Shown here: positions 696 to 34,083 of the stretch, piece by piece | Layout of the letters: every line of letters starts with the position of its first letter | Numbering within the stretch: position 1 is the first letter of the stretch | Source of the DNA: Cymbomonas tetramitiformis | Taxonomy: Eukaryota > Chlorophyta > Pyramimonadophyceae > Pyramimonadales > Pyramimonadaceae | Direction of reading: 5' to 3' | Length of the DNA: 64,000 nucleotides | Assembly: GCA_001247695.2 (NCBI GenBank) | Contig: LGRX02034436.1 | Span: 61,676-125,675 of the forward strand | The notes under the pieces: model-generated | What the model saw: only the letters and a program-made list of their open reading frames with translations | The model's database searches: none | What the model was told of the DNA's origin: nothing | Translations under genes and position numbers: made by a program

Positions 696-1057
696 CAGGG
701 TTTACTGATCGGGCCATAACATCGATACACATCACTTATCCAATCGTCCCGTAAGTTGGTGTCACACGTAGAGGGGTTCAATGCCGTCATTTCAAGCTCT
801 CGAACGTAGGCAAGCGGTCAGATTCGTACAACCCAATCGGAAATTTCCGGGAAACGCGCGATATGCCGAAAAAGCAAATTTTCATGTTGGCCGAAACCGG
901 GCCGTCAAACAAGTCTGGTCAACAGACCCGTAAATCGTTGGACAAGCCGGCCGAAGGCCGGCCGTGCATATTTCATGGCCTGACCGCGCTGGCCGAAACC
1001 GGGCCATCGAATTTTTGAATATCGGGCCGCAATGAATTTTGGAAGACTTCTACCCTG
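696..1057. mobile_element. hAT-MITE-like piece at the truncated 5' end of retroelement A
   Basis: The right end (GGAAGACTTCTACCCTG) matches the right terminus of the well-defined hAT MITE at 22237-22525, and both contain GGCCGAAACCGGGCC-type stretches. The left end starts CAGGGTTTACTGATCGGGCC, so only CAGGGT is shared between the two termini. The flanks (TAATAGATGG and CCAGAGCC) give no 8-bp target duplication. It therefore looks chimeric or rearranged, and it marks where A lost its gag end and 5' LTR. Confidence 0.5.
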
Positions 1058-3040: not shown

Positions 3041-3064
3041 CAGCTGCTCAGGTACCTTCACCCA

Positions 3065-4876
3065 GTGGATGTGGGATCCCTCACGGATGGTATCTTCCAG
3101 CGTTGGGCTAGGCACGGCGAGGAGTGGCTGCCCCTGGAGCTGGTCCCGTTGGATTCCAACACCAGATTCTACCCGGTGGAAGATGGCCTTGGTGGACCCG
3201 GCAGAGTGTTCGCCAACAACGCAGCTGCCCAGGAGTACCTACGCTTGGGGGAGAGCAGGAGGATGCTCAAGTGTGCGAACACTGAGCAGGTGGAGGGGTA
3301 CACTGCGATTAGAGCAGGTGCAGCACGCAGGCCACCACCACCCCACAGCACGACGGTCACCAAGCGCGTGACGACACAGCCATCTGCGCCTGCCGCGGGG
3401 GCAGGACCATCTCGAGCGACCGCTGGGCCGTCTCGGGCCAGGTCCCTCAGTCGTGAAAGGTTGGCACGTTCGAATTCGCCGCCGCGCGCAGTGTACTCGC
3501 CGACGCCATCACCTGTGTCCAGCGACAATGGGCTGGTGGGCAATGTTCGTGAGTCATCATCTCCACCCGCTCGCGCCACAGCAGCTGGACCCTCGAGTGC
3601 GGCCGCTGGCCCTTCTCGTGCCAGGTCGCCGCCCGCATCACCTGCTTTGACTAACGAGGGTTCGTGGGCGAAGTCGATCAGGGTCCCGCGTGGTGCCCGA
3701 GCACGTTCCCCGGGAGACGCGCCTTCCACACCTGCAAGTCCGCCATCTCCGGCTCGGACGCAGCAGCTGTCCCCGTCTCCAACGAGGGCACCTCCATCCC
3801 CATTGGGGTCGGATTGGAGTGCCGTACGGAACGCCACGAACGCGTCCGCCAGCTCATCGCACGAGTTTCTGACTGTGGAGGAGGTGGAGGCCTTGAAGAG
3901 CCGCAGCAACCTCACTGTTTTCATGGTGAAGTTTGGCGCGGACCGCTGCCGAAACCGCCAGGTCATGTATGAGCTGGGTGTGTGCTATAGTAGCGAACGA
4001 GGTCTCCGGCTGCGGGAACATCCAGGGATCTCCAGCAGTGTCGCAAAAAGGCACGACAAGACGATTTCCTGCGCGCAGCGGGGCTGGCGCCTCCCTCTGG
4101 GGGGACAGACAGCATCTTCCAGCTTGTTGGAGGCGGTGGTGTCGGCCTATGCCGACCTGGTGAATTATGGGTCGGTACGTGAGGATCAGCATGCAAGGAA
4201 TATCGTGGGGTCGCTGTGCGCTTACGTGGCGCAAGAGTCCGCGCATGTGTTGTGCTGCAGGGAGCACCCGCACGCCAAACCGGTTTACTACATCTTTGAA
4301 GAACATACGCGGTGTTTGCGATGGCACACTCAGTTTACGGATGAGTACCTCATGCGGGACGACCGCAAGTTCACGCAGATGCTGTGGGGGTCCAAGCAGG
4401 TGGCAACTCCATGGGTGCTGGCAGCGCTGGAATCCCTTGAGGCGCGCCTTTCTCCAGCGGCTGCGCCGCCCGCGCTTCAGGCTCGAGTGGCAGTGAGGCC
4501 TGAGCACATGGACGAGATGTGGACGAGAAATGTGGACGAGGTCCGCGACCGCCCTGCACGTCAGCAGCGCCAGCCGTCTGGCAGTGTGGCTGAACGAGGA
4601 CCGAGGGCGAGCACTGGTGCGCGCATAGCTGCTCCTTCTGCTGGCCGCCGTGGGGCTACCCCTCGTGTCGTTCCCGCGCCGCAAGCATCCCGGCCGCCGG
4701 CCAACCTCACCTCACGGTGTCCGCCTTCCCCGCGTTCGCCGCCTTCTCCGCATTCGATATGCAGTGCTGTGACGGAGACATTTGAGGACCACACGCAACG
4801 ACGACGCGAAACGCAACGACGACGAGCGCGTTTTCATCAGGGCTTCCCGGGCGCAGCGGGAGGGCGGCCCTGCTGA
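3065..4876 (+). CDS. Retroelement A unknown regions X1-X2
   Basis: A 603-codon open frame. It opens with the end of X1 (RFYPVEDGLGGPGRVFANNA, AAQEYLRLGESRRMLK), which matches element B at about 34500-34560. A long Ser/Pro/Arg-rich, probably disordered, linker follows (residues about 95-270). Then comes X2 (about 280-470), with GGQTASSSLLEAVVSAYADL and ARNIVGSLCAYVAQESAHVL; B has a counterpart at 33071-34003. A second Pro/Arg-rich tail ends the frame. No family recognised. The position between protease and RT, and conservation in both copies, suggest a genuine element-encoded product, perhaps structural. It lies just before the TTAA insertion. Confidence 0.7.
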   Translation: MDVGSLTDGIFQRWARHGEEWLPLELVPLDSNTRFYPVEDGLGGPGRVFANNAAAQEYLRLGESRRMLKCANTEQVEGYTAIRAGAARRPPPPHSTTVTKRVTTQPSAPAAGAGPSRATAGPSRARSLSRERLARSNSPPRAVYSPTPSPVSSDNGLVGNVRESSSPPARATAAGPSSAAAGPSRARSPPASPALTNEGSWAKSIRVPRGARARSPGDAPSTPASPPSPARTQQLSPSPTRAPPSPLGSDWSAVRNATNASASSSHEFLTVEEVEALKSRSNLTVFMVKFGADRCRNRQVMYELGVCYSSERGLRLREHPGISSSVAKRHDKTISCAQRGWRLPLGGQTASSSLLEAVVSAYADLVNYGSVREDQHARNIVGSLCAYVAQESAHVLCCREHPHAKPVYYIFEEHTRCLRWHTQFTDEYLMRDDRKFTQMLWGSKQVATPWVLAALESLEARLSPAAAPPALQARVAVRPEHMDEMWTRNVDEVRDRPARQQRQPSGSVAERGPRASTGARIAAPSAGRRGATPRVVPAPQASRPPANLTSRCPPSPRSPPSPHSICSAVTETFEDHTQRRRETQRRRARFHQGFPGAAGGRPC

Positions 4877-4962
4877 GCAACCGACGCTGTGGCCGTGGGC
4901 TGCCGGCACAGGCAGTCCGCATAAGGCCGGGTGTCCTGCGGGCGTTCTGGTAGGCTATTTAA

Positions 4963-5048
4963 TTTAGAATATTTTTTCATAATTTTAGAATAACCCATTT
5001 TCATCGTTAATTTAGAATAAGTTTTCTTTATGTCATCCGGCTATGACC
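4963..5048 (+). repeat. Left TIR of the TTAA element
   Basis: Near-complement of 7562-7653, with scattered mismatches and intact inner blocks ATAATTTTAGAATAACCC and CATCCGGCTATGACCGG. Confidence 0.85.
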
Positions 5049-5146
5049 GGTGCATGCATCCATGACGCTGTACTGTACCTGTTGAGCTATCCCCATGCCA
5101 TGCGAAATATTACACTGAAGAGTTGTCTTGCCGTGATGTCCATATG

Positions 5147-5204
5147 TCCGAATGGAACCAAAAACCGTTCGATTTTAATCGAACGGTTTTTGGTTCCATT
5201 CGGA
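5147..5204. repeat. Perfect 58-bp palindrome inside the TTAA element
   Basis: Two 28-base arms (TCCGAATGGAACCAAAAACC...) flank a 2-base centre and are fully complementary. A second palindrome, GATTCACGGCCGTGAATC, follows at 5207-5224. Possible cruciform or hairpin; role unknown. Confidence 0.9.
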
Positions 5205-5330
5205 AAGATTCACGGCCGTGAATCTAAAAGTCGCGGCCGTGAATAACGACTCTTTACGCATAATGACTTTTATTATTTGCCATCTTTGCCACAATAGACA
5301 CTCACGGCGTGTTCTGCTTGAAAAAAAGTA

Positions 5331-6995
5331 AGTAACTTGAAGCCTTGAGCTTCAAGTTACTGAAAGATATGTATCTTGGCAGTATGTGTGCCAAGTTTCG
5401 TGCTCTAGGACGCACGGGAAGCCCTCGGCTGTTTGGCATCTTTGGGTTTGGGTGTCACGTTCGAACCCAAACCCAAAACATCTGCCTTAGAAATAGATTG
5501 CGCGTTTCGCGCACAAGTAACTTGAAGCCTTGAGCTTCAAGTAACTCAAAGATATGTATCTTGGCAGTATTCGTGCCAAGTTTCGTGCTCTAGGACGCAC
5601 GGGAAGCCCTCGGCTGTTTGGCATCTTTGGGTTTGGGTGTCACGTTCGAACCCAAACCCAAAACATCTGCCTTAGAAATAGATTGCGCGTTTCGCGCACA
5701 AGTAACTTGAAGCCTTGAGCTTCTGGTAACTTAAATATATGTACCATGGTAGTATTCGCGCCAAGTTTCGTGCGTTAGGACGCACGGGAAGCCCTCGGCT
5801 GTTTGGCATCTTTGGGTTTGGGTGCCACGTTCGAACCCAAACCCAAAGCATCTGCCTTAGAAATAGATTGCGCGTTTCGCGCACAAGTAACTTGAAGCCT
5901 TGAGCTTCTGGTAACTTAAATATATGTACCATGGTAGTATTCGCGCCAAGTTTCGTGCTCTAGGACGCACGGGAAGCCCTCGGCTGTTTGGCATCTTTGG
6001 GTTTGGGTGTCACGTTCGAACCCAAACCCAAAGCATCTGCCTTAGAAATAGATTGCGCGTTTCGCGCACAAGTAACTTGAAGCCTTGAGCTTCTGGTAAC
6101 TTAAATATATGTATCTTGGCAGTATTCGTGCCAAGTTTCGTGCTCTAGGACGCACGGGAAGCCCTCGGCTGTTTGGCATCTTTGGGTTTGGGTGTCACGT
6201 TCGAACCCAAACCCAAAGCATCTGCCTTAGAAATAGATTGCGCGTTTCGCGCACAAGTAACTTGAAGCCTTGAGCTTCTGGTAACTTAAATATATGTACC
6301 ATGGTAGTATTCGTGCCAAGTTTCGTGCGTTAGGACGCACGGGAAGCCCTCGGCTGTTTGGCATCTTTGGGTTTGGGTGTCACGTTCGAACCCAAACCCA
6401 AAACATCTGCCTTAGAAATAGATTGCGCGTTTCGCGCACAAGTAACTTGAAGCCTTGAGCTTCTGGTAACTTAAATATATGTACCATGGTAGTATTCGTG
6501 CCAAGTTTCGTGCTCTAGGACGCACGGGAAGCCCTCGGCTGTTTGGCATCTTTGGGTTTGGGTGTCACGTTCGAACCCAAACCCAAAACATCTGCCTTAG
6601 AAATAAATTGCGCGTTTCGCGCACAAGCAACTTGAAGCCTTGAGCTTCAAGGTAACTTCGAAATATATGTATCTTGGCAGTATTCGTGCCAAGTTTCGTG
6701 CTCTAGGACGCACGGGAAGCCCTCGGCTGTTTGGCATCTTTGGGTTTGGGTGTCACGTTCGAACCCAAACCCAAAGCATCTGCCTTAGAAATAGATTGCG
6801 CGTTTCGCGCACAAGTAACTTGAAGCCTTGAGCTTCTGGTAACTTAAATATATGTACCATGGTAGTATTCGTGCCAAGTTTCGTGCGTTAGGACGCACGG
6901 GAAGCCCTCGGCTGTTTGGCATCTTTGGGTTTGGGTGTCACCTTCGAACCCAAACCCAAAGGCAAAGGCATAGGACAGTTTCGTAGATTCTGTCC
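5331..6995. repeat. 185-bp tandem satellite, nine copies
   Basis: Units begin AGTAACTTGAAGCC at 5331, 5516, 5701, 5886, 6071, 6256, 6441, 6626 (AGCAACTTGAAGCC) and 6814: seven intervals of 185 bp and one of 188. Each unit carries an inverted pair (TTTGGGTTTGGGTG / TTCGAACCCAAACCC). Copies differ at a few positions, such as CTTGGCAGT against CATGGTAGT. No protein is conserved across copies, so the array looks non-coding. Confidence 0.95.
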
Positions 6996-7370
6996 CGATG
7001 CCTTTGCAACCTCGCTTGCTAACTCATATTACAATGAATATTCAACATTCAAGCGTTGGATACCCCACGCCAACGGGAAGCGCTCGGCTGATTTGTTATT
7101 TGGGTATGCGCACCCAAATGACAAAAAACGCATCTTTGAAACTCGTTAGTTTCAAAGATGCGTGGCCGATGCCTTCGTGCTTATGTGTGTTAATCCATAT
7201 GAAATATTCCATGGAATAAATGTGAATATCCCGCACAAACGGGAAGCGCTCGGCCGAAGTTTTGTAAAATTAGGGTGCACCCAAAATACAAAACGCATCT
7301 TTGAAACTCGGAAGTTTCAAAGATGCTTGCCGGTCGCGTGCAGCGGTAAAAGGCAAGTCAAAGGGTTTAG
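6996..7370. repeat. Degenerate hairpin repeats beyond the 185-bp array
   Basis: Two diverged units share ACGGGAAGCGCTCGGC and a hairpin formed by GCATCTTTGAAACT and AGTTTCAAAGATGC (about 7130-7163 and 7294-7327). They look like an older form of the satellite. No gene seen. Confidence 0.7.
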
Positions 7371-7561
7371 GATCTAGAAGAAGTACAGGGGCCTTTTTTC
7401 AAGCAGGACACGCCGTGAGTGTCTATTACAACGGCGCCCACCATTATCACAAGCGAGACAACCCTTCTTAAAGCTTTTTGGAGGCTTCCTCATGATGGCA
7501 CCAGCGGGAACGAGAGCGTTTGACCTGTGTGCACATTATTTGAACACGAGTCGTGAAAAGG

Positions 7562-7653
7562 ACCACCGGTCATAGCCGGATGACATCAAGAAAACTTATT
7601 CTAAATTAACGACGAAAACGGGTTATTCTAAAATTATGAAAACTTATTCTATA
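7562..7653 (-). repeat. Right TIR of the TTAA element
   Basis: Reverse complement of the left TIR with scattered mismatches; TTAA follows at 7654-7657. Confidence 0.85.
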
Positions 7654-7657
7654 TTAA

Positions 7658-8808
7658 TTATTTTTCCGTGTATCTCGCTTGCAGGCAGTGCAGTGGTTTG
7701 GTGGTGGCTGGGACGAGGTCCCGTGCCCATGGTCGCCATTTGGGCGATGTTGGAAGCAGTGGCGTGGCACCTGTCGTGGTGCCCTTTTCAGGTCTGGTGG
7801 TGGCGCTGCGTAGCCTCGCTCTGGGACTCGCTGCAGATATGGTGGTCGATTGCTCGACGTTATCCCCGTCGTGCGCACTATGACGTTTGGGTCCTATGGG
7901 CCCTCGCCTATGTTTGGTACGTCGGGCTCCTTATCATGCGCACTACGGGTGTCTATGCCGGAGTACGCCGCGTTCATGCGAAAGATTGGACAGTGGTGCC
8001 CCTCAGGGGGGTGGTCATTTCCCTGGCGTGCTGGTCGCGTTGCGCTGAGGCCACCCTCCTCGTGATCCTCGCCTGGCTCTGGGTCTGCGCTGGTATTCAT
8101 GCCAAGGACATGGCGCACCACATTTCTCATGCCGTGGACATCCCTCTGGGCGTGCATGACGGCCGAGGTGGTCAGGGGTGGACTGTTCCATCCTTGCGCT
8201 GGTCCCAAGTTTTCTTTCTGGGCCGTGTACACCTGCCCGCTTTGCCGGCCAGGTTGGATGAGCCTCGCTTTGCGGCGCGCTGGGCGCAGCTTCGGCGCAA
8301 TCTTCAGCTGCATCGCGTCGCGCAAGCCGCCTACCTGGCGCTTGTCCTTGCGCTGGTGGTCTTTACTGCTGCTGGTGGGAGTTCTCGCTTAACGCACGGG
8401 GGGTGGAGAGTAATGGCGTGCTTCTTCGCTTCGGACCCGCCGGTAGCCGCAGTGCGGTTCAACAGAATTTTGCGATTTTTCCTGCTTTTGTGCGGAATCT
8501 TGTGGGTCGCTGGCAAGCTGGCGGAGAGTGTGCCTGCGCATGGTGCCATGCCACCCACACAGAGTGCCTGGGGTGCGTCGCCCTGCACTTCTTGGGAGGC
8601 TCAGCAGTCGTCGAGGCAATGGGAGCCGGGCTGGGAGGTCAACGTCGCGGAGCAGGATGAGGTCTTGCCGTACACCGTGCTGGACGAGCTTCAGCCTCTG
8701 GGTGACACGACTGTGACCAAGGACGAGGCAGCGTGGCTCGACACGGAGCTCAATGCCACGTTTGGAGGACATCCTGACTTCAAGAAGGAGCACTGGGAGG
8801 AAAAATAA
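7658..8808 (+). CDS. Retroelement A hydrophobic multi-span region before RT
   Basis: The open frame starts formally at 7636, but that ATG belongs to the TTAA element's TIR; retroelement sequence begins at about 7658. Hydrophobic segments can be picked out around AVVWWWLGRGPVPMVAIWAM, VLWALAYVWYVGLLIM, ATLLVILAWLWVCAGI, AAYLALVLALVVFTAAGG and RILRFFLLLCGILWVAG. The tail (ELQPLGDTTVTKDEAAWLD, ATFGGHPDFKKEHWEE) matches B just before RT. Its position upstream of RT is unlike classical env genes, which lie after integrase. In A it closes with TAA overlapping the next ATG (TAATG), where B reads straight through into RT, so A has a small insertion here. Membrane location is inferred from hydrophobicity only. 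Confidence 0.65.
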
Positions 8809-10880
8809 TGCGAGCTGTTCTTCGCAGATGCAAGAGCACTTTCGCCAACAGCCCTCACGACCTGACAGGCTACAAGGGCAAGGCAGAGCATAACACGTTC
8901 TCTATCCCTTTCATAGACGAGTCCAAGGCTGCTTACCAGAGACCCAGGAAGTACAGCCCGGGCGAACAGGAGATCATTGACATCCACTGCAAGGAATTGC
9001 TGGAGTATGGCTTCATAGAGCCTGCAGCCAAGCATTGCAGACATGCGAGCAACGTCGTCGTGGCTGGCAAGAAGGATCATGAGACTGGCATGTGGACCCA
9101 GACGCGCTTCTGCGTGGATCTCAGGGGCGTCAACCGACACTCTCTCAAGGACAACACTCTGCCACATCGGCCAGAGGAGCTTTATCAGAAGGTTGCGAAG
9201 GCCAAGTTCAAGACTACGCTGGATGCCACCAAAGCCTTCCACCCGATTCCTATGGCCACGGACGAGGACAGGAGCAAGACGGCGTTCTGGTGGAAGAACC
9301 AGTTGTACCAATACACCTCGATGCCCTTTGGGGCTGCTGGAGCAACATCTGCGTTTGTAAGGATCATGGACTACGAGTTACGTCACCTGCAGCATTGCAC
9401 GGTGGCATACGTCGATGGCGTAGTGGTCTACACGGACTCCACGCCTGAGCAGCATCTGAAGGACGTCGAGGACGTGTTGCGCACGTTGGGAGACGCTGGC
9501 ATAAGACTGCACGCAGGCAAGAGTACCTTCGGTGCAGCCACGGTGGACTTTCTGGGCTACCGCATTGGGCACAACTCCATTGGCGCGCAGGAAGCAAAGT
9601 GCAAGGCCATCCAGGAACTTCCGAGGCCCCAGGACAAGACTGGGCTCCGTTCCATCTTAGGCATGATGAACTACTATAAGGGCTTGGTGGGTGAGCCAGG
9701 GGGGCCGAATTATTCTGAGATGGCCCGCCCTCTCAACGACCTGCTCAAGAAAGAGATTACCGATATCAAGGGAGCTTGGGGGAAGGAGCAAGACCAAGCG
9801 CTTCAGGACCTGAAGGACTCGCTCTGCTCTGGGAGATGTCTGAGGCCTATCGATTATGACAGGCCCCTCATATTGTACACTGATTGGAGCACCTATGGCA
9901 TTGGCGCAGTGTTGGGCCAGAAGGACGACGATGGGAAGGAATACATCTGCATGGCAATCAGTCGTTCCTTGAGCAAGACAGAAAGGCAGTACGCTAGCTT
10001 CAAAGGTGAGATGCTTGCAGTGGTGTGGGCAGTGCGCACGCTGAGGCAGTACTTGCATGGCGTCCACTTCACGCTGGTGACGGACCACTCGCCACTCACC
10101 ACCTTGATGGAGAAAGCGGACCTTCAGGGACAGCACCTACGGTGGGCAATCAGCCTGCAGGAGTTCGACTTCACGGTGAAATATCGCCCGGGAGCTAAGA
10201 ACAGCAACGCCGACGTGCCATCTCGCTACCCACTACCATCCACGACAGACGAGACTGGAGCAAGGCATGAGAGGGAGAAGGTGACTGCGCTTCACGCAGG
10301 CGTGGGGGAAGTTTACACGAAGGAATTCTGCGACCACCTGTGCTTTATCCTGGCTGGAGACGCTTCCCCAGGGGAAGAGGCGATGCCAGAGGTGCAGGTT
10401 GCCAACTACTGCAAGATGGCCGCCATGGAGCAGCTGGGCACGGGACCAGTGCATCGCTTATTCGATTTGCACCATCAGGAGGAATTGGAGTGCAATCACG
10501 GGGACACGTTCGACACAGACCTACCCGAGCTGGTGATCGACTCTGGGAGGCTAGCGAGAGCGGCTTGGAAGGCGCTGAGCTTGGTGAGACCCACACGAGG
10601 CACGCATGTCGAAGGAAGTCCCGCTGTGTACAGCAATGAGTACTTTGAAGGCGAACGCATCTTGAAGCCTGAGAAGGTGGACACCAGGGTGCTGGGCAGG
10701 CAGTTCTTCTCGCAAGCTCGAGAGGAAGGCGTGGTGTGCTATGAGCCATGTGGAGGCCTCTGTGCTGGCCTAGAGATGTTGCTCCGCAATGGAATGAAGG
10801 TGGATCGGTACTTGTATCAAGACATACAGTTTCACCGAGCAGTCAGACAGTGGCCAGAGCCAGGTGCACGGCGTTACTGA
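8808..10880 (+). CDS. Retroelement A reverse transcriptase-RNase H, entering the DNA methyltransferase
   Basis: 690 codons. RT spans residues about 45-270, with YSPGEQEIIDIHCKELLEYG, FCVDLRGVN, TTLDATKAFHPIPM and MPFGAAGATSAF. The catalytic box reads AYVDGVVVYTD near residues 201-211 where B has AYVDDVCIYSD, so the second catalytic Asp is Gly. RNase H (about 355-480) has TDWSTYGIGAVLG, KGEMLAVVWA and VTDHSPLTTL. After a linker, the frame enters a C5 methyltransferase: VVCYEPCGGLCAGLEMLL (residues about 643-660, motif I-like) and YLYQDI. It then terminates because a frameshift near 10820 moves the rest to another frame. B shares this organisation. RT is probably inactive. Confidence 0.9.
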   Translation: MRAVLRRCKSTFANSPHDLTGYKGKAEHNTFSIPFIDESKAAYQRPRKYSPGEQEIIDIHCKELLEYGFIEPAAKHCRHASNVVVAGKKDHETGMWTQTRFCVDLRGVNRHSLKDNTLPHRPEELYQKVAKAKFKTTLDATKAFHPIPMATDEDRSKTAFWWKNQLYQYTSMPFGAAGATSAFVRIMDYELRHLQHCTVAYVDGVVVYTDSTPEQHLKDVEDVLRTLGDAGIRLHAGKSTFGAATVDFLGYRIGHNSIGAQEAKCKAIQELPRPQDKTGLRSILGMMNYYKGLVGEPGGPNYSEMARPLNDLLKKEITDIKGAWGKEQDQALQDLKDSLCSGRCLRPIDYDRPLILYTDWSTYGIGAVLGQKDDDGKEYICMAISRSLSKTERQYASFKGEMLAVVWAVRTLRQYLHGVHFTLVTDHSPLTTLMEKADLQGQHLRWAISLQEFDFTVKYRPGAKNSNADVPSRYPLPSTTDETGARHEREKVTALHAGVGEVYTKEFCDHLCFILAGDASPGEEAMPEVQVANYCKMAAMEQLGTGPVHRLFDLHHQEELECNHGDTFDTDLPELVIDSGRLARAAWKALSLVRPTRGTHVEGSPAVYSNEYFEGERILKPEKVDTRVLGRQFFSQAREEGVVCYEPCGGLCAGLEMLLRNGMKVDRYLYQDIQFHRAVRQWPEPGARRY

Positions 10881-12061
10881 GACGATATCCTGACCTTATC
10901 TCGCCCAGTGCGATAGAGTTTGGGGCCCTACCCCAAGATCTGCATGACACGACGAGCGCCGATTTCATACGAGCAGGAGCTCTTCAAGGACGCCAGTGGG
11001 TCATGGTGTGCGGGTTTCCATGCCAGGATCTCTCCCCTGCTGGAACGCTTACAGGCCTGGATGGCAGGCACAGCAAATTATTTTATGAAGTAGTTCGGCT
11101 TCTGTCCACGCTGCAGCAGCTACAGCAGCAGAGGCCCCCAGGCTATATCCTGGAGAACGTTTCCCCGTTGTCGCACAGACCCGGTACCAAGATCAGGGAC
11201 GAGGTGTTCCCGTACATTGCCAGCGTCATTGGCCGACCAGTGTCCTTTGATGCAGCACAAGCAGGCGCCTACGCACATCGATTGCGAGCGTACTGGAGTA
11301 ACCTGTTCCAGATCCACCAGTTTCGCTCTGTGATGAGCAAGGTGGCGAGACCAGAAGGACGAGTTGTATCGTCAATCTTATTATGCAAGGGCTGGCAGCC
11401 CAGACCAGTGATGAGAACAGACCGCGCGCCTCACTATGTGGTGAACGTGGTGGGAGAACCGCTGAGGGCTCTTCCCACCATCATGGCAACGCAAGGGTCG
11501 AGAGCATTCAGAAGAGCGAGAATGGGCACCGTGGTGCGCAACCATTCCGATGAGGACACCGAGGAAGAATCCCGAGAAGTGAACCTCGACGAGAAGGCGC
11601 GAGCCATGGGCTACAGCGCAAGTGAGCTACGCATGGCTGATGGCCTGAACGACGTAGAATTGGCGAGCATTCTGGGCCTGGCCATGGATCTTAGGGCTAT
11701 GGAACTGCTGATGTCAGTCGCAGAAGCAAGCAGGAAGGGGCTTCCTCACAGCGAGGAGTCCCCAGTGGCGGAGAATTCCCCAGGACAGCCTATCGCTGTA
11801 GACAACAACTGGGCAGACCACGCGAGGTCGGACCTTCAGCAGAGACAAGCTTTGCTGGCGGAATGGGTTGGAAATTCGAACGCATACACTCAGCAGGTGG
11901 CGAAGACCATGAGCCACCGTGACTGGGAAGAGAAGCTGCAGATAATGTGCTCGCAAGGGCAGAAAGGTGCAGAGGGAATTGGGGCTCAGCGGCAGAAGGC
12001 AGGCTGGAACCAAGAAGAAGAAGAAGAAGAAGAAGAAGGAGTGGCAGCTCTACGCCATTGA
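10748..12061 (+). CDS. Retroelement A cytosine-5 DNA methyltransferase (main part)
   Basis: Authentic coding begins at about 10830, after the frameshift out of the RT frame. Methyltransferase motifs in order: VMVCGFPCQDLSPAG (motif IV, catalytic PCQ cysteine), ILENVSPLSHR (motif VI, ENV), FDAAQAGAYAHRLRAYWSNL (motif VIII region, reminiscent of the HRxRxFWxN pattern of DNMT3/DRM-type enzymes), PLRALPTIMATQGSRAF and LDEKARAMGYSASELR (IX-X region). It would transfer a methyl group from SAM to C5 of cytosine in DNA. Cytosine methyltransferases in charophyte Ty3-like elements are known, as I recall; whether this is the same lineage is inference. The frame ends in a GAA microsatellite (about 12009-12042), where reading shifts into the integrase frame. 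Confidence 0.85.
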   Translation: MWRPLCWPRDVAPQWNEGGSVLVSRHTVSPSSQTVARARCTALLRRYPDLISPSAIEFGALPQDLHDTTSADFIRAGALQGRQWVMVCGFPCQDLSPAGTLTGLDGRHSKLFYEVVRLLSTLQQLQQQRPPGYILENVSPLSHRPGTKIRDEVFPYIASVIGRPVSFDAAQAGAYAHRLRAYWSNLFQIHQFRSVMSKVARPEGRVVSSILLCKGWQPRPVMRTDRAPHYVVNVVGEPLRALPTIMATQGSRAFRRARMGTVVRNHSDEDTEEESREVNLDEKARAMGYSASELRMADGLNDVELASILGLAMDLRAMELLMSVAEASRKGLPHSEESPVAENSPGQPIAVDNNWADHARSDLQQRQALLAEWVGNSNAYTQQVAKTMSHRDWEEKLQIMCSQGQKGAEGIGAQRQKAGWNQEEEEEEEEGVAALRH

Positions 12062-14327
12062 GCAGTATCGCCAGAGGCACAAGAGCCACTTCGTGAAGGA
12101 GGGCGCAACTCCAGCAGCACGCGCTAATGTGCCTGCTTGGAGTCCGCCTGGTAAAGATGAGGAGATGAGAGTTCCCAGGTTGGCATGTATCACCAGATTC
12201 GTGGACTTGATGGCCAGTGTTGCTGAACAGCAGGCTGACCGCGACAAGCATCGAGATGTGCATGACGATGCGTGGTGCCTCAGATGGCTGAAGTCCAATG
12301 GCAGTGTGAAATTGCCAGAGGATGAAGTTCGTCGAGTGAAGAGGCGTGCAGCACGGCATCGATGGGATGAGGCTACAGACGAGATCTACATGATTACGCT
12401 GTCGGGCAAGGAGGTGAGGATACCCAAGCCTGCTGACCGTCTTGCGTTGGTCAAGGAGTACCACTCCAGAACTGGCCATTGGGGAATAAGGCGTACGCAG
12501 CATCTTCTGTGGCAGCGTCATTGGTGGGCCGACCTGAAGAAGGACGTGGAGGCAGTGGTCACTCAGTGCGAGACCTGCCAGCGCGTGAAGACTCACTACG
12601 CGAGGGAGGAGGCGTGTTTGTCCCCCCTTGAGATCGTGTCGTTCATGTATCGTTGGTCACTGGACTTGGCATGGCCTTCGAGGAGGGAAACCAAGGCTGG
12701 TAACAACAGGGTGCTCATCATGACCGAGCACTACACCAGATTCATAGTCTGCGTGCCTATCCCCAACAAGGAGGCGAGCACCATTGCGGCAGCATTTCGC
12801 AGTCATGTGCTAGCCGTGTTCGGTGCGCCAGCAGAGTGCTTGGTGGATGGAGGCAAAGAGTTCGAGGGTGAGTTCGAGCAGCTATGCAGAGACTGTCTGA
12901 TAGACAGGAGGGTTACCTCGCCAGACTCGCCAGAAGGCAACGGTCTTACCGAGCGAGTGGTGCGTACAATGAAGTTTTGCTTCAAGAAGATCGCCTTGGA
13001 GAAGGGCCTCGATTATGAGTGGGATGAACAACTCTGGCCACTCGTGCTGAGCTACAATGCAGCACGCCAAGAGTCCACAGGAGTGGCGCCGTTTACCTTG
13101 CTGTTTGCCCAAGAGGCAGTGGTGCCGCCAGATTTGAAGCAGGCGCCCAGCATGGATTTCAGTCCAGAGGTCAATGATGACAAGGACGCCCGAGTTAAAG
13201 ACCTCCTCCTGAGAGCACAGGTAGTGAGGCGGTTGATGGTGCATGCTGGCTGCAGCTTAGAGGTTGCGCAGCATCGTGATACTTTACATTATGAAGGGAG
13301 AAGGGGTGGGGGCTATGAGCCTAAGCCACACCAATTTAAAGTGGGGGACTTCGTCTACATCAGACAGAAGCCTCGCAGCGGTATGGAAGTCGCAACCAAG
13401 TCCGCCATCCTGAAGCTGGTCAAGATACAGCGAGATGGTGTTGTGGTGCTTGAGGACGCCGCCAAGTTCAGGGAGAAGAGCACTGTTCAGAGCATCGCGC
13501 CATGTCACCTGCAGGTGAAGGACCAGTATGACTGTAGTGCAGCCGTGCCCAGCAGACATCTTGCATGTGAAGTGTGCAGGAAGACTGATGGAGAAGCAGA
13601 GATGTTGTTGTGCGACGCGTGCAACAAGGGGTACCATTTGTGGTGTCTTACCCCAGCATTGAATGAAGTACCAGAAGGCGAGTGGCTATGTCCTAGGTGC
13701 TCAGGCACGAGGATGCAAGCTGCTAACGCTGAGGTGCAGGCCCAGGAAACCAAGAGCTCTTGGGTCCTGGAGGACAGATTGGGAATGAAGGAGCAGCAAT
13801 TGAACGAGAAGCTGTCCTCGGACATGCGCCTGCTGCCAGCAGACGTGGGTTCCCGTCGTGTGGTGAAGGGAGATAAGTCACAGCCATGGCATGCTATCTC
13901 GTCAAGGGAGATGCTGCTGGAAGAGAAGGACATGTTCCTCTACATGCCAGATCAGATTGATTGGGGCAGGCAGGACAAGCTCTCAGAGGCTGTGCAGATC
14001 TTCATGCCAGGACACTGGAATGAGGGACATCGCACCGTGCTGAGCAAGAAGTACCGGGAACAGAAAGCAATGGCGAGGCAACTGAGGGATGCACCTCGTG
14101 TGCCTGCTTTGGCTGAAGAAGAAGTTGAGAAACGAGGAGAATTGAGACATATGACCAGGGCTCAGGTGCGCGAAGCTAGCGCACTGCAGTGGGGGCTTGA
14201 GCTGGTTATCACAGTGCCCTCCGAGGTGAGGCGCGTGGCGACAGAGGTGGACTGGAAGTCCATCGATGGCGTGTGGGACCCATGGGCAGGTACTGGGATC
14301 ATCAGTGAGGTGATGGTGGAGCAATAG
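11967..14327 (+). CDS. Retroelement A integrase with PHD finger and start of a second methyltransferase-like domain
   Basis: 786 codons; authentic sequence starts after the microsatellite. The H2C2 zinc finger (residues about 165-207) has HSRTGHWGIRR and CETCQR. The integrase core (about 228-345) has WSLDLAWP, CLVDGGKEFEGEF and GNGLTERVVRT, giving D, D and E. A basic segment (VGDFVYIRQKPRSGM) follows. A C4HC3 PHD finger (about 533-582) shows CEVCRKTDGEAEMLLCDACN, GYHLWCL and WLCPRC. PHD fingers read histone tails in many proteins, so it may steer integration to marked chromatin (inference). The C-terminus reaches VWDPWAGTGIISEVM, a SAM motif I-like sequence, then stops at TAG (14325-14327). 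The same frame continues as the next feature. Confidence 0.9.
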   Translation: MQRELGLSGRRQAGTKKKKKKKKKEWQLYAIEQYRQRHKSHFVKEGATPAARANVPAWSPPGKDEEMRVPRLACITRFVDLMASVAEQQADRDKHRDVHDDAWCLRWLKSNGSVKLPEDEVRRVKRRAARHRWDEATDEIYMITLSGKEVRIPKPADRLALVKEYHSRTGHWGIRRTQHLLWQRHWWADLKKDVEAVVTQCETCQRVKTHYAREEACLSPLEIVSFMYRWSLDLAWPSRRETKAGNNRVLIMTEHYTRFIVCVPIPNKEASTIAAAFRSHVLAVFGAPAECLVDGGKEFEGEFEQLCRDCLIDRRVTSPDSPEGNGLTERVVRTMKFCFKKIALEKGLDYEWDEQLWPLVLSYNAARQESTGVAPFTLLFAQEAVVPPDLKQAPSMDFSPEVNDDKDARVKDLLLRAQVVRRLMVHAGCSLEVAQHRDTLHYEGRRGGGYEPKPHQFKVGDFVYIRQKPRSGMEVATKSAILKLVKIQRDGVVVLEDAAKFREKSTVQSIAPCHLQVKDQYDCSAAVPSRHLACEVCRKTDGEAEMLLCDACNKGYHLWCLTPALNEVPEGEWLCPRCSGTRMQAANAEVQAQETKSSWVLEDRLGMKEQQLNEKLSSDMRLLPADVGSRRVVKGDKSQPWHAISSREMLLEEKDMFLYMPDQIDWGRQDKLSEAVQIFMPGHWNEGHRTVLSKKYREQKAMARQLRDAPRVPALAEEEVEKRGELRHMTRAQVREASALQWGLELVITVPSEVRRVATEVDWKSIDGVWDPWAGTGIISEVMVEQ
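12009..12042. repeat. GAA/AAG trinucleotide microsatellite at the methyltransferase-integrase junction
   Basis: About eleven GAA units encode poly-Glu in one frame and poly-Lys in the next. The methyltransferase and integrase frames overlap here. B has no such tract, so expansion may have broken the polyprotein in A. Confidence 0.8.
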
Positions 14328-14333
14328 CCGCAG

Positions 14334-14804
14334 TTGAGATTTATGAATAATGACTGGAACTCTCAGCTGGGTTGGTCTGAGGCGCATGATGCACTTCAGC
14401 CAGGTAACTATCGCATATGGAAGGAGAAGTATGGCGTCTGTGATGCGGTGGTGACTTCGCCCTGGTTTGCAGCGCTGGATATCGCGTTTCCGTTGGCAGT
14501 TATGGCCAGTCGTGTGGTGGCATGCGTGCATGTTCCCTCTTACTATTTGACAGACATGACCGAGAGCAGAGCCGCGTACTTCAGACGATTGAGTCAGTCT
14601 GGGCGCCTGCATGTGATTGGACATCTGGAACATGGACCTATTGGCCGCAGGCGTATGTGGGTCTTGGTGTTCAAGAACCCGCTGGTCAGAGCCAGGATGT
14701 TACAGGGTGGAGAAGGTGAAGGCGTTGGTATGTTCACTTTCAGTTTGGGCAAGTTCATGGCAGATGGTGATACGACCCAGTATGCTGAACAAGCCCATAT
14801 TTGA
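14334..14804 (+). pseudogene. Retroelement A second SAM-methyltransferase-like domain, C-terminal part
   Basis: This is in frame with the integrase ORF, separated from it by the single TAG at 14325-14327. It carries MNNDWNSQLGW, then YGVCDAVVTSPWFAALDIAF and CVHVPSYYLTDMT, and ends in RRRMWVLVFKNPL. With DPWAGTG upstream the motif order is I then IV, with SPWF where N6-adenine enzymes have NPPF/Y or DPPW. B carries the same block at 21663-22166 with high similarity, so it belongs to the element. Adenine methylation is a hypothesis: the changed motif could mean another acceptor or a non-catalytic domain. Confidence 0.65.
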
Positions 14805-14832
14805 GTCTGTGCTACTGCAGGCAGCAGCTACA

Positions 14833-14841
14833 GATGGGGGA
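14833..14841 (+). promoter_or_regulatory. Retroelement A polypurine tract
   Basis: GATGGGGGA directly precedes TGTTGG, the proposed LTR start. Element B has the same context (ACAAATGGGGGATGTTG on the minus strand). It would prime plus-strand DNA synthesis. Confidence 0.7.
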
Positions 14842-15638
14842 TGTTGGAAATCTGGGCTTGCATATAAGAGCTTAGCGTTCGATCTCAGAATATCAGAATT
14901 TCAAAAATTTTGTAGCTCTACGATCTTGTGCTGTGTTAAGATTGCCTGGATAATTACCGACACAAGTGAATGTTAAAGACGAGTTTATGTTTACCCGCGA
15001 GTTTTAAGATTACTCGGGTCCGGCAGTATTCGTCCCATCATGTGCATGCGTTTGCGACAGCTGTAACAAACGCCGGCTTCTCATGGTACCGCGCCGGGTT
15101 TGTCCAGCTGGTGACACACGTGACAGATATGACAAGTATGACAGGCTTCGCGTAAGATGACTGCTCGAGAGGTGTAGACCTGCCAGAGAAGATATGTTCA
15201 TTATCGGGTGACCATGAAGTGATAAGATGAGATGACAGTTACCACTTTGCCACTGACGTGTCAGTCAGAATGTGGTGAACGGTAACATTGTTAGAGCTGG
15301 CATGGAATGATGACTTTCCATTGGCTAGATGAAGATTTCAGGGCTGAAGCCCGTTACAGTTTTGGGAGATGTGACAGAGAATTGAGATATAAGTAAGCTC
15401 TGACTGTAGGTCAGAACTAGAGGACTCATTATTGTTTTGCTGCTCGCAAGTACTAGGTGGCTGTTCGCGTGCCAGTGCTAGACTGCTAAAACAGTTCTGC
15501 TCACAGTTTTTGTACAATAATTCGTACTTTTGGTTATTATACCGATCTTTTGATGAATATATTTTACTGCTGTTTTTATTCTTTTTCAAAAAGGTGTTTG
15601 AAATTGTAACATTCGTCAAGTCGTCAATCGTGCTGCAA
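14842..15638 (+). repeat. Retroelement A 3' LTR (interrupted)
   Basis: It starts TGTTGG after the polypurine tract. It resembles the start of B's LTR in the blocks GCTTGCATA and GCTTAG. A TATA-like GAGATATAAGTAAG lies near 15385. The far end cannot be set because the small LTR element inserts at 15638 and the 5' LTR is missing; the remainder may resume at 17479. Confidence 0.6.
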
Positions 15639-15881
15639 TCACGGGGAGCCCAATCTTGCCACCCCCACTGTAAGGGGGGGGCACAGTGGGTCTCCTGTCT
15701 GTCACCCCTCAGCCCGATGTGTCACCAGTGTCCGTTGTCACGGTTGTCACGGTGTGCTATAAAACACTCACCTAAGTATTTTATATCATCTTAGTATCCG
15801 AGAACACCTGCCCCTGCGAGACTGTTCTGCACACACGCATTCGACATATATATCGACATATATATATCTCACTTCTTGTCA
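15639..15881 (+). repeat. TRIM-like element, left LTR
   Basis: 243 bp, with two mismatches against the right LTR by eye (a C/G near 15740 and a C/T near 15824). GCTATAAAACAC near 15756 is a good TATA box, with a possible transcription start downstream. Confidence 0.88.
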
Positions 15882-16444
15882 GGTTATCGGCCACCACTTG
15901 TGGGTGTTCGTTGATTACTTTTGATCCCTGGAGGGCACGTCGAAACTCCTTGAAAACCGCCGCACGTCGCCGGCAGCTGTCGCACGTCGCCGACAGCAAC
16001 TACATCTCGACCTCGGCCACCGTTGAAGATCGCGGCCGCGTCAAAATTTTATCACCAAACCGTTGACAATTTGGGCTACAATTGTGCCCCGTTGTTTTTA
16101 CGCATTTCCGACCATTCCCAACTACGTGCCCTACACTCTGGACAGCAGCGCCCGAACTGTGGCAAAACTGGCTTACCGCACGTTATTTTTGACCTCACCG
16201 CCGTTTTCCTCGTCGAATTTCACCCCAATTTGGCTTTTACATCGCCCGATTTGGTTAATTTTACGAAGAGTTACGTTTTAGACACGCACCCAAACGCGCC
16301 CTCGCCTTTCTGGACAGCAGCACCGCTCCTGCAGGACAACTGGCTTGCCGCACGACTTGTTTGACGTCACCGGCGTCTTCCTCGTCAGAATCTACTCCAA
16401 TTTGACCCATCCATCGCTGGATTTGGTTCATTTTTCAGAAAGTT

Positions 16445-16936
16445 ATGTCTTCGCTTGGGAACCCTAACTTCGCGTTCGCGGAATTCTCCAGCCAGCGGTC
16501 AGCCACCATGTCCGCTGACCGCCAGAATGCGCGCATGCCAACTGTTCATTCGGCGTTTGCATCTTTTCGAGTCCATCGACGGCATCCTGCACCTGGCTAT
16601 GGTCTGGTGGTGTCTGGTGGTGCTTATGCACCAGACACCAACATCGAGTCTATCGCCTTCGCCAATGACGACAACTCTGAGCACGACGAGTTGCGTCCGC
16701 AGCATCCTCCGCTCTCCGCTCCACCCTTCGTGCCCCTTGGCCACTGTGTGGTGGTGTGCGGTGGTGTTACAACACCAACCCCACCGATTCTCCCCTCTGC
16801 TTGCGCGCTCATTGGCGGCAGAGTGGGGGCTCGCCGCATTTTTCACCTTCCATCCCCCTGCCCCCTCTTCGTTGACGCATCCGCCCTGGTGGTGCCAGGC
16901 CGCTTTTGGCTCTGGCATCGCACCGGCGTTGGTTGA
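16445..16936 (+). CDS. Unrecognised ORF inside the TRIM-like element
   Basis: A 163-codon open frame with no recognised domain; an overlapping frame (16455-16973) is equally open. The region is Pro/Ser/His-rich in translation and has diverged internal repeats (GTCTGGTGGTGTCTGGTGG near 16599, GTGTGGTGGTGTGCGGTGG near 16746). It could be captured host sequence, but coding status is doubtful. Confidence 0.2.
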   Translation: MSSLGNPNFAFAEFSSQRSATMSADRQNARMPTVHSAFASFRVHRRHPAPGYGLVVSGGAYAPDTNIESIAFANDDNSEHDELRPQHPPLSAPPFVPLGHCVVVCGGVTTPTPPILPSACALIGGRVGARRIFHLPSPCPLFVDASALVVPGRFWLWHRTGVG

Positions 16937-17230
16937 ACGTTGTAGGGGTGAGTATTGCCTCACTGGCGCTTGACGCATGCGATCGAGGGTGACGCCGCCG
17001 CCAGCAAGATTCCGACAACAAAGCACAGCTCAGCATTGACCCTTCTCCATGCCTGCACGGTGTGTGATGATCCTCGAGGGACCTGAGTTCTTTAGATTTA
17101 CTTAGCAACAGACTTTTGGACATCTTGGGATGGCACATGCCGGACTGCTCGAGCCAGTTTGGCTCCTAGACCCTGCAGTGCTCCTGCCTCTTTGCCTGGT
17201 GACACCTCAACCCCACGGGGTGAGGTGGTG

Positions 17231-17473
17231 TCACGGGGAGCCCAATCTTGCCACCCCCACTGTAAGGGGGGGGCACAGTGGGTCTCCTGTCTGTCACCCC
17301 TCAGCCCGATGTGTCACCAGTGTCCGTTGTGACGGTTGTCACGGTGTGCTATAAAACACTCACCTAAGTATTTTATATCATCTTAGTATCCGAGAACACC
17401 TGCCCCTGCGAGACTGTTTTGCACACACGCATTCGACATATATATCGACATATATATATCTCACTTCTTGTCA
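17231..17473 (+). repeat. TRIM-like element, right LTR
   Basis: Same 243-bp sequence as 15639-15881; the TGCAA target duplication follows at 17474-17478. Confidence 0.88.
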
Positions 17474-17478
17474 TGCAA

Positions 17479-18490
17479 ATCTCACATGCGGTGTCAACGT
17501 GGCACGCAGTGCGGACATGACATGCCCTGGCGGTCGTCTCGCGGGAATCACAAAATTTCGCGCACATACCCCCTATTTTTCGCGAAACCGCTTATCGATG
17601 GATTGCGAGTTTGCGACTGGATGTTTGGTACTCTCCTCCCCAGAGCTTATGGACGAAAATAAACATTTAGGGTTTGTAACTCTGTGGGGTCCATAAGCGA
17701 CACGCGAGGGTCGACGTTACAGTTGATCGAAGAGGCTCGGAGAAACTCTGGGAACAAGAGTAGGATGTTTGGAATCGAAATTTCGCGCGCAGAAGCCGCA
17801 GACCCCCTATTTTTCGCGAAATTGATCGATTTATTATGGCTACCCATTTTTCGCAAAAAAAACGCGAAATTTGGGGGAGACCCTTAGGGGGAGGGGTGAA
17901 AATAAAAAATCCAGCTTGTTATTATATGATCGTGGCTTGAATTGGACACGAATGGCCCTACCGTATGGATGGACAATGACGAATAAGCAAACTAAATTCC
18001 TTTGGCAAAATTGATTGATGATGACATTCTGTTTGAGTGTTGTGAAAGCGACCTTACTGAACTCGCAGTACAAGTACTTAATACCATTGTTATCGCCTCA
18101 GCCTACTACGAACGGTTACAGAATTAGTTGTAGCTTCAGATGATGCCTTCGGAGATTGCGCGGTGGATATTGTCATTCAGTGACACTTGTAATTATTTTC
18201 GTCGAGTCCGAAGAACTGCAACAGAGTCCCGCAAACTTTCAAGTTATAACTCTTCCTCCGAGTTACTACATGGCTGTCGCAGTTGTTAGCATGCAATTTC
18301 GTCAACAGTTAAGAACCGTGAAAAATGTCAGCATTGTAGCCCATTAGAATTGCTTCGAGCTTCGTCACTGAGCTTCGGAACTACTGATCTCTTTTAAACC
18401 TCACGGAGGTCATGTGTCTTCGCGCGGAACGCTATTTCTACGTATAGCTAAGATTTATGATTCCAACTTCCAACATTCAGGGATACCTCA
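17479..18490. other. Non-coding stretch, possibly the remainder of the A LTR
   Basis: No gene seen. It holds repeated CCCCTATTTTTCGCGAAA motifs (near 17569 and 17803) and a complementary CGCGAAATTTGGGGG near 17863, suggesting a small decayed inverted-repeat element. Confidence 0.4.
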
Positions 18491-19375
18491 TCATATTTGC
18501 GGCAGTCCCCGGCGTGGTGGTATGATGTCGCCAGAAGATCCTAATATAGCAGGCTGGTCGATTCCCACGGTTTTCCCGCCGGGAGGTAAAACCTCATCAG
18601 CAGTCTCAGAATGTGGCATAGCAACCAAACTTGGCGCTGTCTGAAAGTCAGAAACGCCGTGCGTAACAATAGCAGTAGCTGGAGTTATTCCGGTGGAAAC
18701 AATCTCACTTTGCGCTGACTCTGGTGCGTGAGTCGACAGACCTCTTACCTTCATTTGTGCGTGAAATCCAAGCGCACAACCGACCAAACGTTCCAAAAAC
18801 GTTATTAAGCTGGGAAAACCTAGAAGAGGTAAGAGAGACATCAACAAGCTCATAACAATGAGCTCGACAAGCGTGGACACACAGCTGAACCCGAAATGTA
18901 TTCCGGCTCGAGCTCGAAGTGGTTCGATGCCCATCACGCTGGTTTTCAAGCAGTAACCTCCGCCAAGGAAAAGTGCCGCTGAAAATATTTGAAGTATTCC
19001 AAAAACTAGCGAAACCGTTAGCAAACTAACATATAACTCGATGGCATCGTTGACGTCGTCATCAGAAGACAGATCAGAATCTCCTAAAGAACCAATATAT
19101 AACCAATATATGATGATACCAGCCAACAGTGCCAGGCAGAGGATGCCTTCCCACATAATTTGGCCGATTGTGAAGCATCTCTGCGGAATAAAGGGACGCC
19201 AGTACGTCACATCAAAGCCACTGTCACAACACGTACAACACGTGGCACACCATGAAAAGCAGCAAAATTCTCCCGGCGGTTGGCTAACTCCCGACGGTGG
19301 GATTTCAGATGCTGCCATGATAGCGAAGATACCTATAATAATCCTACAAAATGCTGCTGCTCGCCACTGCTTCAA
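18491..19375 (-). CDS. Predicted tetraspan membrane protein, unknown family
   Basis: An intact single-exon frame of 294 codons with an ATG start and no lesions, unlike nearly everything around it. Four hydrophobic stretches can be read: IIIGIFAIMAA (about 12-22), ILCLALLAGIIIYWLYIGSL (about 78-97), LLTVSLVFGILQIFSAALFL (about 117-136) and LVELIVMSLLMSLLPLLGF (about 172-190). A Cys-rich loop (CCFSWCATCCTCC) lies after the first, an acidic loop (DSDLSSDDDVNDAIE) after the second, and the C-terminal tail of about 100 residues is hydrophilic. This fits a four-span protein with the long tail on one side; I do not recognise the family. A TTTATAAG box lies upstream on the minus strand near 19440. 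It is the likeliest host gene here. Confidence 0.65.
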   Translation of the reverse strand: MKQWRAAAFCRIIIGIFAIMAASEIPPSGVSQPPGEFCCFSWCATCCTCCDSGFDVTYWRPFIPQRCFTIGQIMWEGILCLALLAGIIIYWLYIGSLGDSDLSSDDDVNDAIELYVSLLTVSLVFGILQIFSAALFLGGGYCLKTSVMGIEPLRARAGIHFGFSCVSTLVELIVMSLLMSLLPLLGFPSLITFLERLVGCALGFHAQMKVRGLSTHAPESAQSEIVSTGITPATAIVTHGVSDFQTAPSLVAMPHSETADEVLPPGGKTVGIDQPAILGSSGDIIPPRRGLPQI

Positions 19376-21300: not shown

Positions 21301-21668
21301 AGACGCGGAACGTGATATAAAAATTTTTTACATGAATATTGGGGGGAAATCTTTATTCAGATTGTCCCCCTCTTTCAAAAATCCGCTTTTTTGTGTCACG
21401 CTTTATGACCGTGGCGCTTTTCGACTGTCACGCTTTTCGCGCTCACGCTGTCGCGAACGTATGCACGACGTGTCCCTACGAAGCGCGACTATCTAGTCCT
21501 ACTACTATATGTAGCCTTACTTATTGTCAGTATCTCTATAGCACCAGCTCAGTACTATATACATTGTCTTATGTTACTGCACAGTCAATCTCTCAACTGT
21601 AACCACACAAAGTTCAAATTGTTTTGATAACCACACTTAGCTTCCTATGCAAGCTCTTTTTCTCAACA
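21301..21668 (-). repeat. Retroelement B 3' LTR (left limit arbitrary)
   Basis: On the minus strand it begins TGTTGAGAAAAAGAGC right after the polypurine tract (AAATGGGGGA, 21669-21678). GCTTGCATA and GCTAAG blocks are shared with A's LTR start. The far boundary could not be found. Confidence 0.5.
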
Positions 21669-22166: not shown

Positions 22167-22236
22167 GTGAGGCCACTCCAGTGAGCAGTGACATCACCTC
22201 GCCAATCACAACTGTACCAGCCCACGGGTCCCAGAC

Positions 22237-24852: not shown

Positions 24853-24859
24853 TCATGAG

Positions 24860-29781: not shown

Positions 29782-29789
29782 ATGATTGC

Positions 29790-31968: not shown

Positions 31969-31976
31969 ATGATTGC

Positions 31977-33058: not shown

Positions 33059-33070
33059 GGAGGGACGCGG

Positions 33071-34003: not shown

Positions 34004-34083
34004 CTTGCTTTTAAAGCATCGGTATGGGACGAGGAAGACAGTCTGCCCATCCCGTTGTACCAGCTCCGCGATCTGGGCCGGGT

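Follow-up and report, generated by a model that had tools for sequence, protein, structure and literature searches.

Introduction

Retrotransposons with one captured methyltransferase are already known (PMC5890265), and the presence of DNA methyltransferases (DNMTs) in charophyte and dinoflagellate retrotransposons, mentioned as published in a preliminary description of the DNA treated here, is borne out by that report. It describes KnitGypsy-Dnmt3 of Klebsormidium nitens, a long terminal repeat (LTR) Gypsy element with a Dnmt3-type C5 methyltransferase in its Pol polyprotein, as well as SymbioDIRS-Dnmt3 and SymbioLINE-Dnmt of Symbiodinium, which also have a C5 methyltransferase inside a retrotransposon. 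For retrotransposon DNMTs, de novo CG methylation activity and the writing of 5-methylcytosine (5mC) have been reported (PMC5890265). In addition, DIRS elements with a Dam-like adenine methyltransferase provide a described case of a retrotransposon-encoded amino-type enzyme (PMC5890265; PMC6338049). Here, we analyse a stretch of 64,000 nucleotides from Cymbomonas tetramitiformis (the window; contig LGRX02034436.1, positions 61,676 to 125,675), which contains two decayed copies, A on the + strand and B on the - strand, of one Ty3-type retrotransposon family of green algae. Besides a C5 methyltransferase, both copies encode a PHD finger and, past the integrase, a second methyltransferase-type domain, referred to below as the terminal domain.

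Results

Pfam matches and motif positions place the domains of copies A and B in the same order: reverse transcriptase (RT), RNase H, C5 methyltransferase, H2C2 integrase domain, DDE core, PHD finger and terminal domain. The preliminary description had put a C5 DNA methyltransferase between RNase H and integrase in both copies, which PF00145 and the motif positions confirm for A and B, and a second, non-C5 methyltransferase-type domain past the integrase, which is likewise found in both. The identity of the latter is drawn from relatives and models, because the window pieces have no Pfam match (no family at E 0.1).

Both enzymes are found on one predicted polypeptide in two relatives, with no stop in between. 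P0090 (1,384 aa, Cymbomonas, 5 member sequences) has the DNMT at residues 76-386 with motif I just before, followed by the integrase, the PHD finger (985-1029) and the terminal domain (1188-1368). P0130 (1,164 aa, 7,409-base ENA contig, 6 member sequences) has the DNMT at 1-320, the integrase, the PHD finger at 778-821 and the terminal domain at 990-1162. P0090, a gene prediction, may be spliced; the source of P0130 suggests metagenomic DNA, in which case its prediction probably involved no splicing. Together with the fold described below, these stop-free polypeptides support the earlier claim that a Ty3-type Pol combines two methyltransferase-type domains of different kinds with a PHD finger. 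The order is conserved at considerable distance, as P0090 and P0130 share 31% identity in the DNMT, 38% in the integrase, 52% in the PHD finger and 41% in the terminal domain.

A survey of polypeptides comprised 56 proteins at E<=1e-20, and a full Pol (~2,000 aa) could not appear in it because candidate length was limited to ~436-1,388 aa. Using local profiles (domain E<1e-5), the DNMT was found in 27/56, the terminal domain in 21/56 and both in 8/56 (P0087, P0090, P0100, P0103, P0116, P0125, P0130 and P0132; most of them partial). The DNMT profile, A3, was built from six relatives including P0090, P0087, P0130 and P0134, so that these four match it by construction. P0116 and P0125 are partial cases with the DNMT C-terminus, integrase, PHD finger and terminal domain, and a single polypeptide, P0102, runs from RNase H through the DNMT to the integrase. 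The closest named relatives are predicted Cymbomonas tetramitiformis proteins: over 244 residues P0003 matches copy A at 95% identity, and P0086 and P0089 match the integrase-PHD frame of this copy at 96%. In a tree of 63 terminal domains with weak deep branches and several long rows, P0130, P0116/P0117 and the Cymbomonas group take separate places, and the pairing of the two enzymes would therefore be either old or repeated; the tree leaves both.

Relatives of the terminal domain numbered 16 in a first search and 82 in a profile search among 8,000 candidates scored; they stem from Cymbomonas, Chromochloris (Chrzof names, P0041, P0046), EukProt, JGI, ENA and other records. Pfam (at the loose limit of E 0.5) and PHROG scans covered 59 of 83 proteins, with 24 short or partial ones left out. 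Pfam matches were to D12 N6-adenine methyltransferase (15/59, best 4.5e-5), N6_N4_Mtase (4/59) and UPF0020 (2/59); those D12 matches that were examined singly, all from members other than the best-scoring one, reached at most 21.4 bits versus a cut-off of 22. The PHROG family phrog_799, "DNA methyltransferase", was matched by 7/59 relatives at E<=0.001 (best 1.1e-10, P0060), and in P0130 this match falls within the terminal domain (residues 990-1066). The window copies and P0003 had no PHROG match, and an NCBIfam scan of the terminal domain gave nothing specific. The Dam family (PF05869) occurred neither in Pfam scans of window copies and relatives nor among the 25 of 37 families listed for the 59 proteins.

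Structure comparison with a model of the relative P0003 places the terminal domain inside the S-adenosylmethionine (SAM) methyltransferase fold, as had been proposed, with a Rossmann methyltransferase topology; in this model-based ranking M.TaqI, METTL5 and the KsgA/Dim1/Erm rRNA enzymes stand together as matches. Motif I, the acidic residue and the S-P of motif IV are retained in nearly all rows covering them. In a column tally, motif I is kept, and motif IV, canonically [DNS]-P-P-[YFW], reads TSPWF in 49/80 rows and TSPPF in 4/80. The domain is a putative class I amino-type methyltransferase, whose target would be an exocyclic amine: most probably N6 of adenine or, failing that, N4 of cytosine. 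In P0115 (Haematococcus lacustris, 875 aa, 4 member sequences), an integrase-PHD protein, the terminal domain is alignable and its motif IV region looks degenerate; it may be a version that has lost catalysis while its frame stayed open.

Wider searches returned no confirmed relative, neither in IMG/VR with the terminal-domain alignments A1 and A2 or the DNMT alignment A3, nor in one prokaryote-genome scan with A1, nor by tblastn of P0060 against phages and plasmids. Against PDB sequences, the A1 profile had two matches, both at E>0.3, and the best 60 of 178 matches of A2 all lay in the PHD part. Foldseek comparison of the P0003 model with viral models yielded 65 matches at E<=0.001, many of them methyltransferases and none decisive.

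Between copies A and B the terminal domain is 76.8% identical in protein, compared to 79% for RT/RNase H and 64% for the DNMT. It has evolved under purifying selection while the A and B subfamilies diverged (pN 0.137, pS 0.709, 151 codons), with an omega of 0.07 (bootstrap 0.04-0.15) beside 0.08 for RT/RNase H (523 codons), both of which are rough values because dS is ~2. The terminal domain was thus held about as tightly as the polymerase. Saturation of synonymous sites precludes a point estimate of omega for the pieces with DNMT, integrase and PHD finger, where pN is 0.22-0.32. At the DNA level, the copies are ~70-72% identical over 8593-11710, 12334-13690 and 14271-14864 of copy A.

The C5 METHYLTRANSFERASE domain, matched by PF00145 in both copies, retains motifs I (CYEPCGGLCAGLE), IV (PCQ), VI (ENV) and VIII in P0090. 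Against solved structures, profile A3 ranks DNMT3A/3B best (2e-8), followed by 4onj, "DNA methyltransferase" (1e-5), HhaI (3e-5) and DRM2 (1e-3); the copy B piece searched singly had weak matches to bacterial C5 enzymes only (HaeIII 0.004, HhaI 0.01). From these profile matches we read the domain as Dnmt3-like, the type reported for the charophyte element (PMC5890265).

For the PHD finger, the best solved matches include CHD4, WSTF, KMT2C/2D, KDM5 (lid), ATXR5, BAZ2B and PHF21A, several of which bind the histone H3 tail with unmodified K4. In relatives such as the ENA protein P0029, a small strand-rich segment lies between PHD finger and methyltransferase (model residues ~95-165 in P0029, pLDDT, the model's per-residue confidence, mostly 82-94), and relatives show weak Pfam matches to DUF7141 (4.5e-4, P0039) and PTM_DIR17_Tudor (0.072, 1/59). 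As a lead only, this suggests a Tudor-like second reader; such a segment is not evident in the Cymbomonas linker.

No LTRs, protease or Gag were found around A or B, so the assignment as Ty3-like is based solely on the order of the domains and the type of integrase. Both copies have the Metaviridae-type order of RT, RNase H and an integrase with H2C2 domain and DDE core, according to Pfam and motif positions. No flanking LTRs were found when 1500-8600 was compared with 14790-20500 (A) and 18500-21665 with 28380-36000 (B) by blastn (word size 9, E<=0.5), or in a repeat search of the window at >=60 nt. A simple motif scan of the decayed copies revealed neither a protease-like [DN][ST]GA motif nor a zinc knuckle in any of three frames, over 6900-8830 for A and 27900-31500 for B. 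Both copies are old, and these negatives concern decayed DNA.

Neither copy is intact. In copy A (+ strand), RT and RNase H occupy 8778-10877 (Pfam: RVT_1 1e-19, RT_RNaseH 1.9e-33, RT_RNaseH_2), and the RT active site reads YVDG (9408-9419), versus YVDD in copy B. The DNMT is spread over two frames: motif I (10737-10775) lies at the end of the RT/RNase H frame, and the Dnmt3-like part with motifs IV, VI and VIII onward (11012-11305) in a different one (10745-12058; PF00145 2.7e-10). A further frame change follows in a purine-rich tract ahead of the integrase. The integrase-PHD-linker frame (11946-14324) contains the integrase zinc domain (12477-12578; Integrase_H2C2 1.2e-16), the DDE core (12651-12968; rve 1.1e-7, 0.2 bits below the curated cut-off) and the PHD finger (13566-13700; PHD 5.3e-12) and runs up to motif I (14277-14297) of the terminal domain (14277-14801 as a whole). 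Just past this motif the domain is split by an in-frame TAG stop (14325-14327); its remainder, the putative amino-type methyltransferase recognised by homologue searches and the fold of P0003, extends over 14328-14801 with NDW at 14346-14360 and motif IV (TSPWF) at 14454-14468.

Copy B has the same domain order on the - strand, from 28390 down to 21666, with several frame changes. RT and RNase H (26336-28390; Pfam) are 79% identical to copy A. The N-terminal part of the C5 methyltransferase (25789-26403, motif I 25972-26010) is 67% identical over 152 codons, and the part with motifs IV to VIII and onward (24651-25829; PF00145 3.7e-11) 64%. Integrase zinc domain and DDE core fall in two frames (23557-24852; Integrase_H2C2 3e-18 and rve 4.4e-5, the latter under the cut-off, for 23914-24852). 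They are followed by the integrase C-terminal part with the PHD finger (22784-23488, finger 23081-23215; PHD 1.2e-10) and, again in two frames, by linker and terminal methyltransferase domain (21666-22848; motif I 22213-22230, motif IV TSPWF 22032-22046), 76.8% identical to A over 151 residues. Its motif I is interrupted by a 289-bp insertion (22237-22525, - strand), which is flanked by an 8-bp target-site duplication and whose perfect 15-bp terminal inverted repeats start with CAGGG; part of the insertion resembles window 981-1062 (78.8%). It has the appearance of a short hAT-type DNA transposon.

Upstream of the copy A RT, at the expected Gag/protease place, lies an open frame with five membrane-segment-like stretches (7576-8808, + strand), part of which resembles, by eye, a frame upstream of copy B (29358-29822, - strand). 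These frames are possibly an unusual N-terminal part or a separate gene of the element. Further upstream there is a satellite array (5330-7112; nine copies in register with a 185-bp period, of which the last have diverged) flanked by a 97-bp inverted repeat (4956-5052 and 7564-7660, 92.8% identity). Downstream of copy A, two 243-bp direct repeats (15639-15881 and 17231-17473, + strand; 99% identical, starts 1,592 bp apart) are possibly terminal repeats of another short element. Between the copies, a 299-aa open frame with several hydrophobic stretches (18491-19390, - strand) might be a gene or an exon for a membrane protein of the host.

Discussion

Based on our data, we favour with reasonable confidence a Pol that runs from RT and RNase H over a Dnmt3-like C5 methyltransferase, DDE integrase and PHD finger to an amino-type methyltransferase and that would mark both the cDNA and the integration site. 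In this scheme, Pol would carry both enzymes with the cDNA into the nucleus and to the integration site, where the Dnmt3-like domain could add 5mC, the terminal domain an amino-methyl mark (N6-methyladenine, 6mA, being most likely, else N4-methylcytosine, 4mC), and the PHD finger could keep the integrase complex bound to the histone H3 tail. What the element would probably gain is a new copy that arrives pre-marked in a way the host tolerates. In several eukaryotes 6mA goes along with permissive chromatin (PMC12695648), so that a 6mA writer could keep the new copy expressible. The more far-reaching proposal of a living green-algal lineage in which a single Pol writes 5mC together with 6mA or 4mC, reads histone H3 via its PHD finger and leaves each new copy self-labelled is a tentative one, to which we give slightly less than an even chance.

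As a universal architecture, this arrangement is opposed by four ENA or JGI proteins, P0121 (in which the DNMT is present), P0122, P0126 and P0128, which stop shortly past the PHD finger. P0126 and P0128 also have no room for a DNMT, because RNase H and integrase zinc domain are only 177 and 230 residues apart, compared to 578 in P0102; P0122 begins just ahead of the integrase and is uninformative on the DNMT. A frame break or contig end is possible behind some of these early endings, known here from protein records alone. For the refuting condition set in the preliminary description, intact copies without the terminal domain, the outcome is mixed: relatives without it do exist, and the pairing stands where it occurs. 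Because related proteins end right past the PHD finger, the terminal domain looks modular. The wider clade seems to consist of Ty3-type elements with a PHD finger; the DNMT is present in some of them, and in some the terminal domain in addition.

The structural ranking itself raises another explanation, since METTL5, the enzyme for N6-methyladenosine (m6A) in 18S rRNA, and the KsgA/Dim1/Erm rRNA enzymes rank alongside M.TaqI: the terminal domain might be an m6A-type RNA methyltransferase acting on the element's own RNA, with a 5mC mark on DNA and an RNA mark that aids stability or escape from silencing. The domain is compact, with no extra target-recognition domain, and an orchid Ty3 element with an RNA m6A demethylase domain has been reported (PMC9289625). 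However, the best sequence profiles of the relatives are DNA-methyltransferase families (phrog_799 in 7/59; D12 and N6_N4_Mtase weakly), and the domain sits on one polypeptide with three parts that work on DNA or chromatin, namely integrase, PHD finger and DNMT, so that we regard action on RNA as unlikely, though it keeps an appreciable share of the probability. We consider it more doubtful still that the domain is a non-catalytic methyltransferase fold kept for structure or binding, such as SAM sensing, DNA binding or regulation of the integrase. SPWF in place of SPPF in most rows and the degenerate-looking motif IV region of P0115 in an otherwise open frame would fit such a role, but motif I, the acidic residue and the S-P of motif IV persist in nearly all covering rows, where an enzyme that had lost catalysis should show relaxed motifs, and omega is ~0.07 between A and B.

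Finally, the two enzymes could have come together by chance in decayed, nested or mis-assembled copies rather than in a living element, given that both window copies are broken and copy B has a further insertion. This is contradicted by the identical order in A, B, P0090 and the distant P0130, and in part in P0116 and P0125; short of the database polypeptides proving to be artificial joins, we see hardly any chance for it. Two further candidates were rejected: a host gene beside a dead element, by the terminal domain lying on one polypeptide with integrase and PHD finger in P0090 and P0130, and a chance open frame, by the A-B protein identity of 76.8% and the omega of 0.07.

An active Pol with these two writers would allow a direct test of whether mobile elements set DNA marks of their own in order to evade or steer silencing by the host. 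It would also give algae a further source of methylation at adenine (or N4-cytosine), and 6mA in eukaryotes is being actively investigated (PMC12695648). In annotation, domains of this kind could be miscounted as host methyltransferases. The 2015 Cymbomonas genome paper reports a cytosine DNA methyltransferase on a very high-copy scaffold with >10,000-fold coverage (PMC5741210).

Comparison with known systems

As far as our searches go, one polyprotein with two writers of different chemistry and a histone reader has not been described; among the matches listed, titles and abstract openings of the open-licence literature described no retrotransposon that pairs a C5 methyltransferase with one of the amino type. 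The present family shares with the KnitGypsy-Dnmt3 kind a Dnmt3-type C5 methyltransferase in the Pol polyprotein (PF00145, A3, P0102). Its host is a chlorophyte and not a charophyte, and, compared by description only, the main text on KnitGypsy-Dnmt3 contains neither "PHD" nor "second methyltransferase" (PMC5890265). SymbioDIRS-Dnmt3 and SymbioLINE-Dnmt are described as a DIRS element with tyrosine recombinase and a LINE (long interspersed nuclear element) (PMC5890265), whereas the present family has a DDE integrase and Ty3 order; in place of such a recombinase, both A and B have the DDE core and the H2C2 domain. The Dam-like DIRS elements also use a tyrosine recombinase, and their descriptions mention no C5 enzyme in the same polyprotein (PMC5890265; PMC6338049). 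In contrast to them, our family combines a DDE integrase with a terminal domain that has no Pfam match in the window copies.

Outside this group, ParB-methyltransferase proteins of algal DNA transposons (Sola1-1_Ec32 and others) are likewise transposon-encoded N4C/N6A-type enzymes, but are described as a separate gene with a ParB domain and, in that account, with no C5 enzyme (PMC12477816). From the same alga, chromodomain Ty3/Gypsy elements with a histone reader in Pol have been reported; their reader is a chromodomain instead of a PHD finger, and "methyltransferase" occurs 0 times in the main text (PMC10675990). The "histone-read-DNA-write" principle itself is described for N4CMT of bdelloid rotifers, an amino-methyltransferase with an S-P-x-aromatic motif joined to a histone reader, which is a host gene of the beta type with a chromodomain (PMC8885841). 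In the family from Cymbomonas, by comparison, the putative amino-type enzyme is a domain of a retroelement Pol, has motif I before motif IV, and is accompanied by a PHD reader and a second, C5 enzyme.

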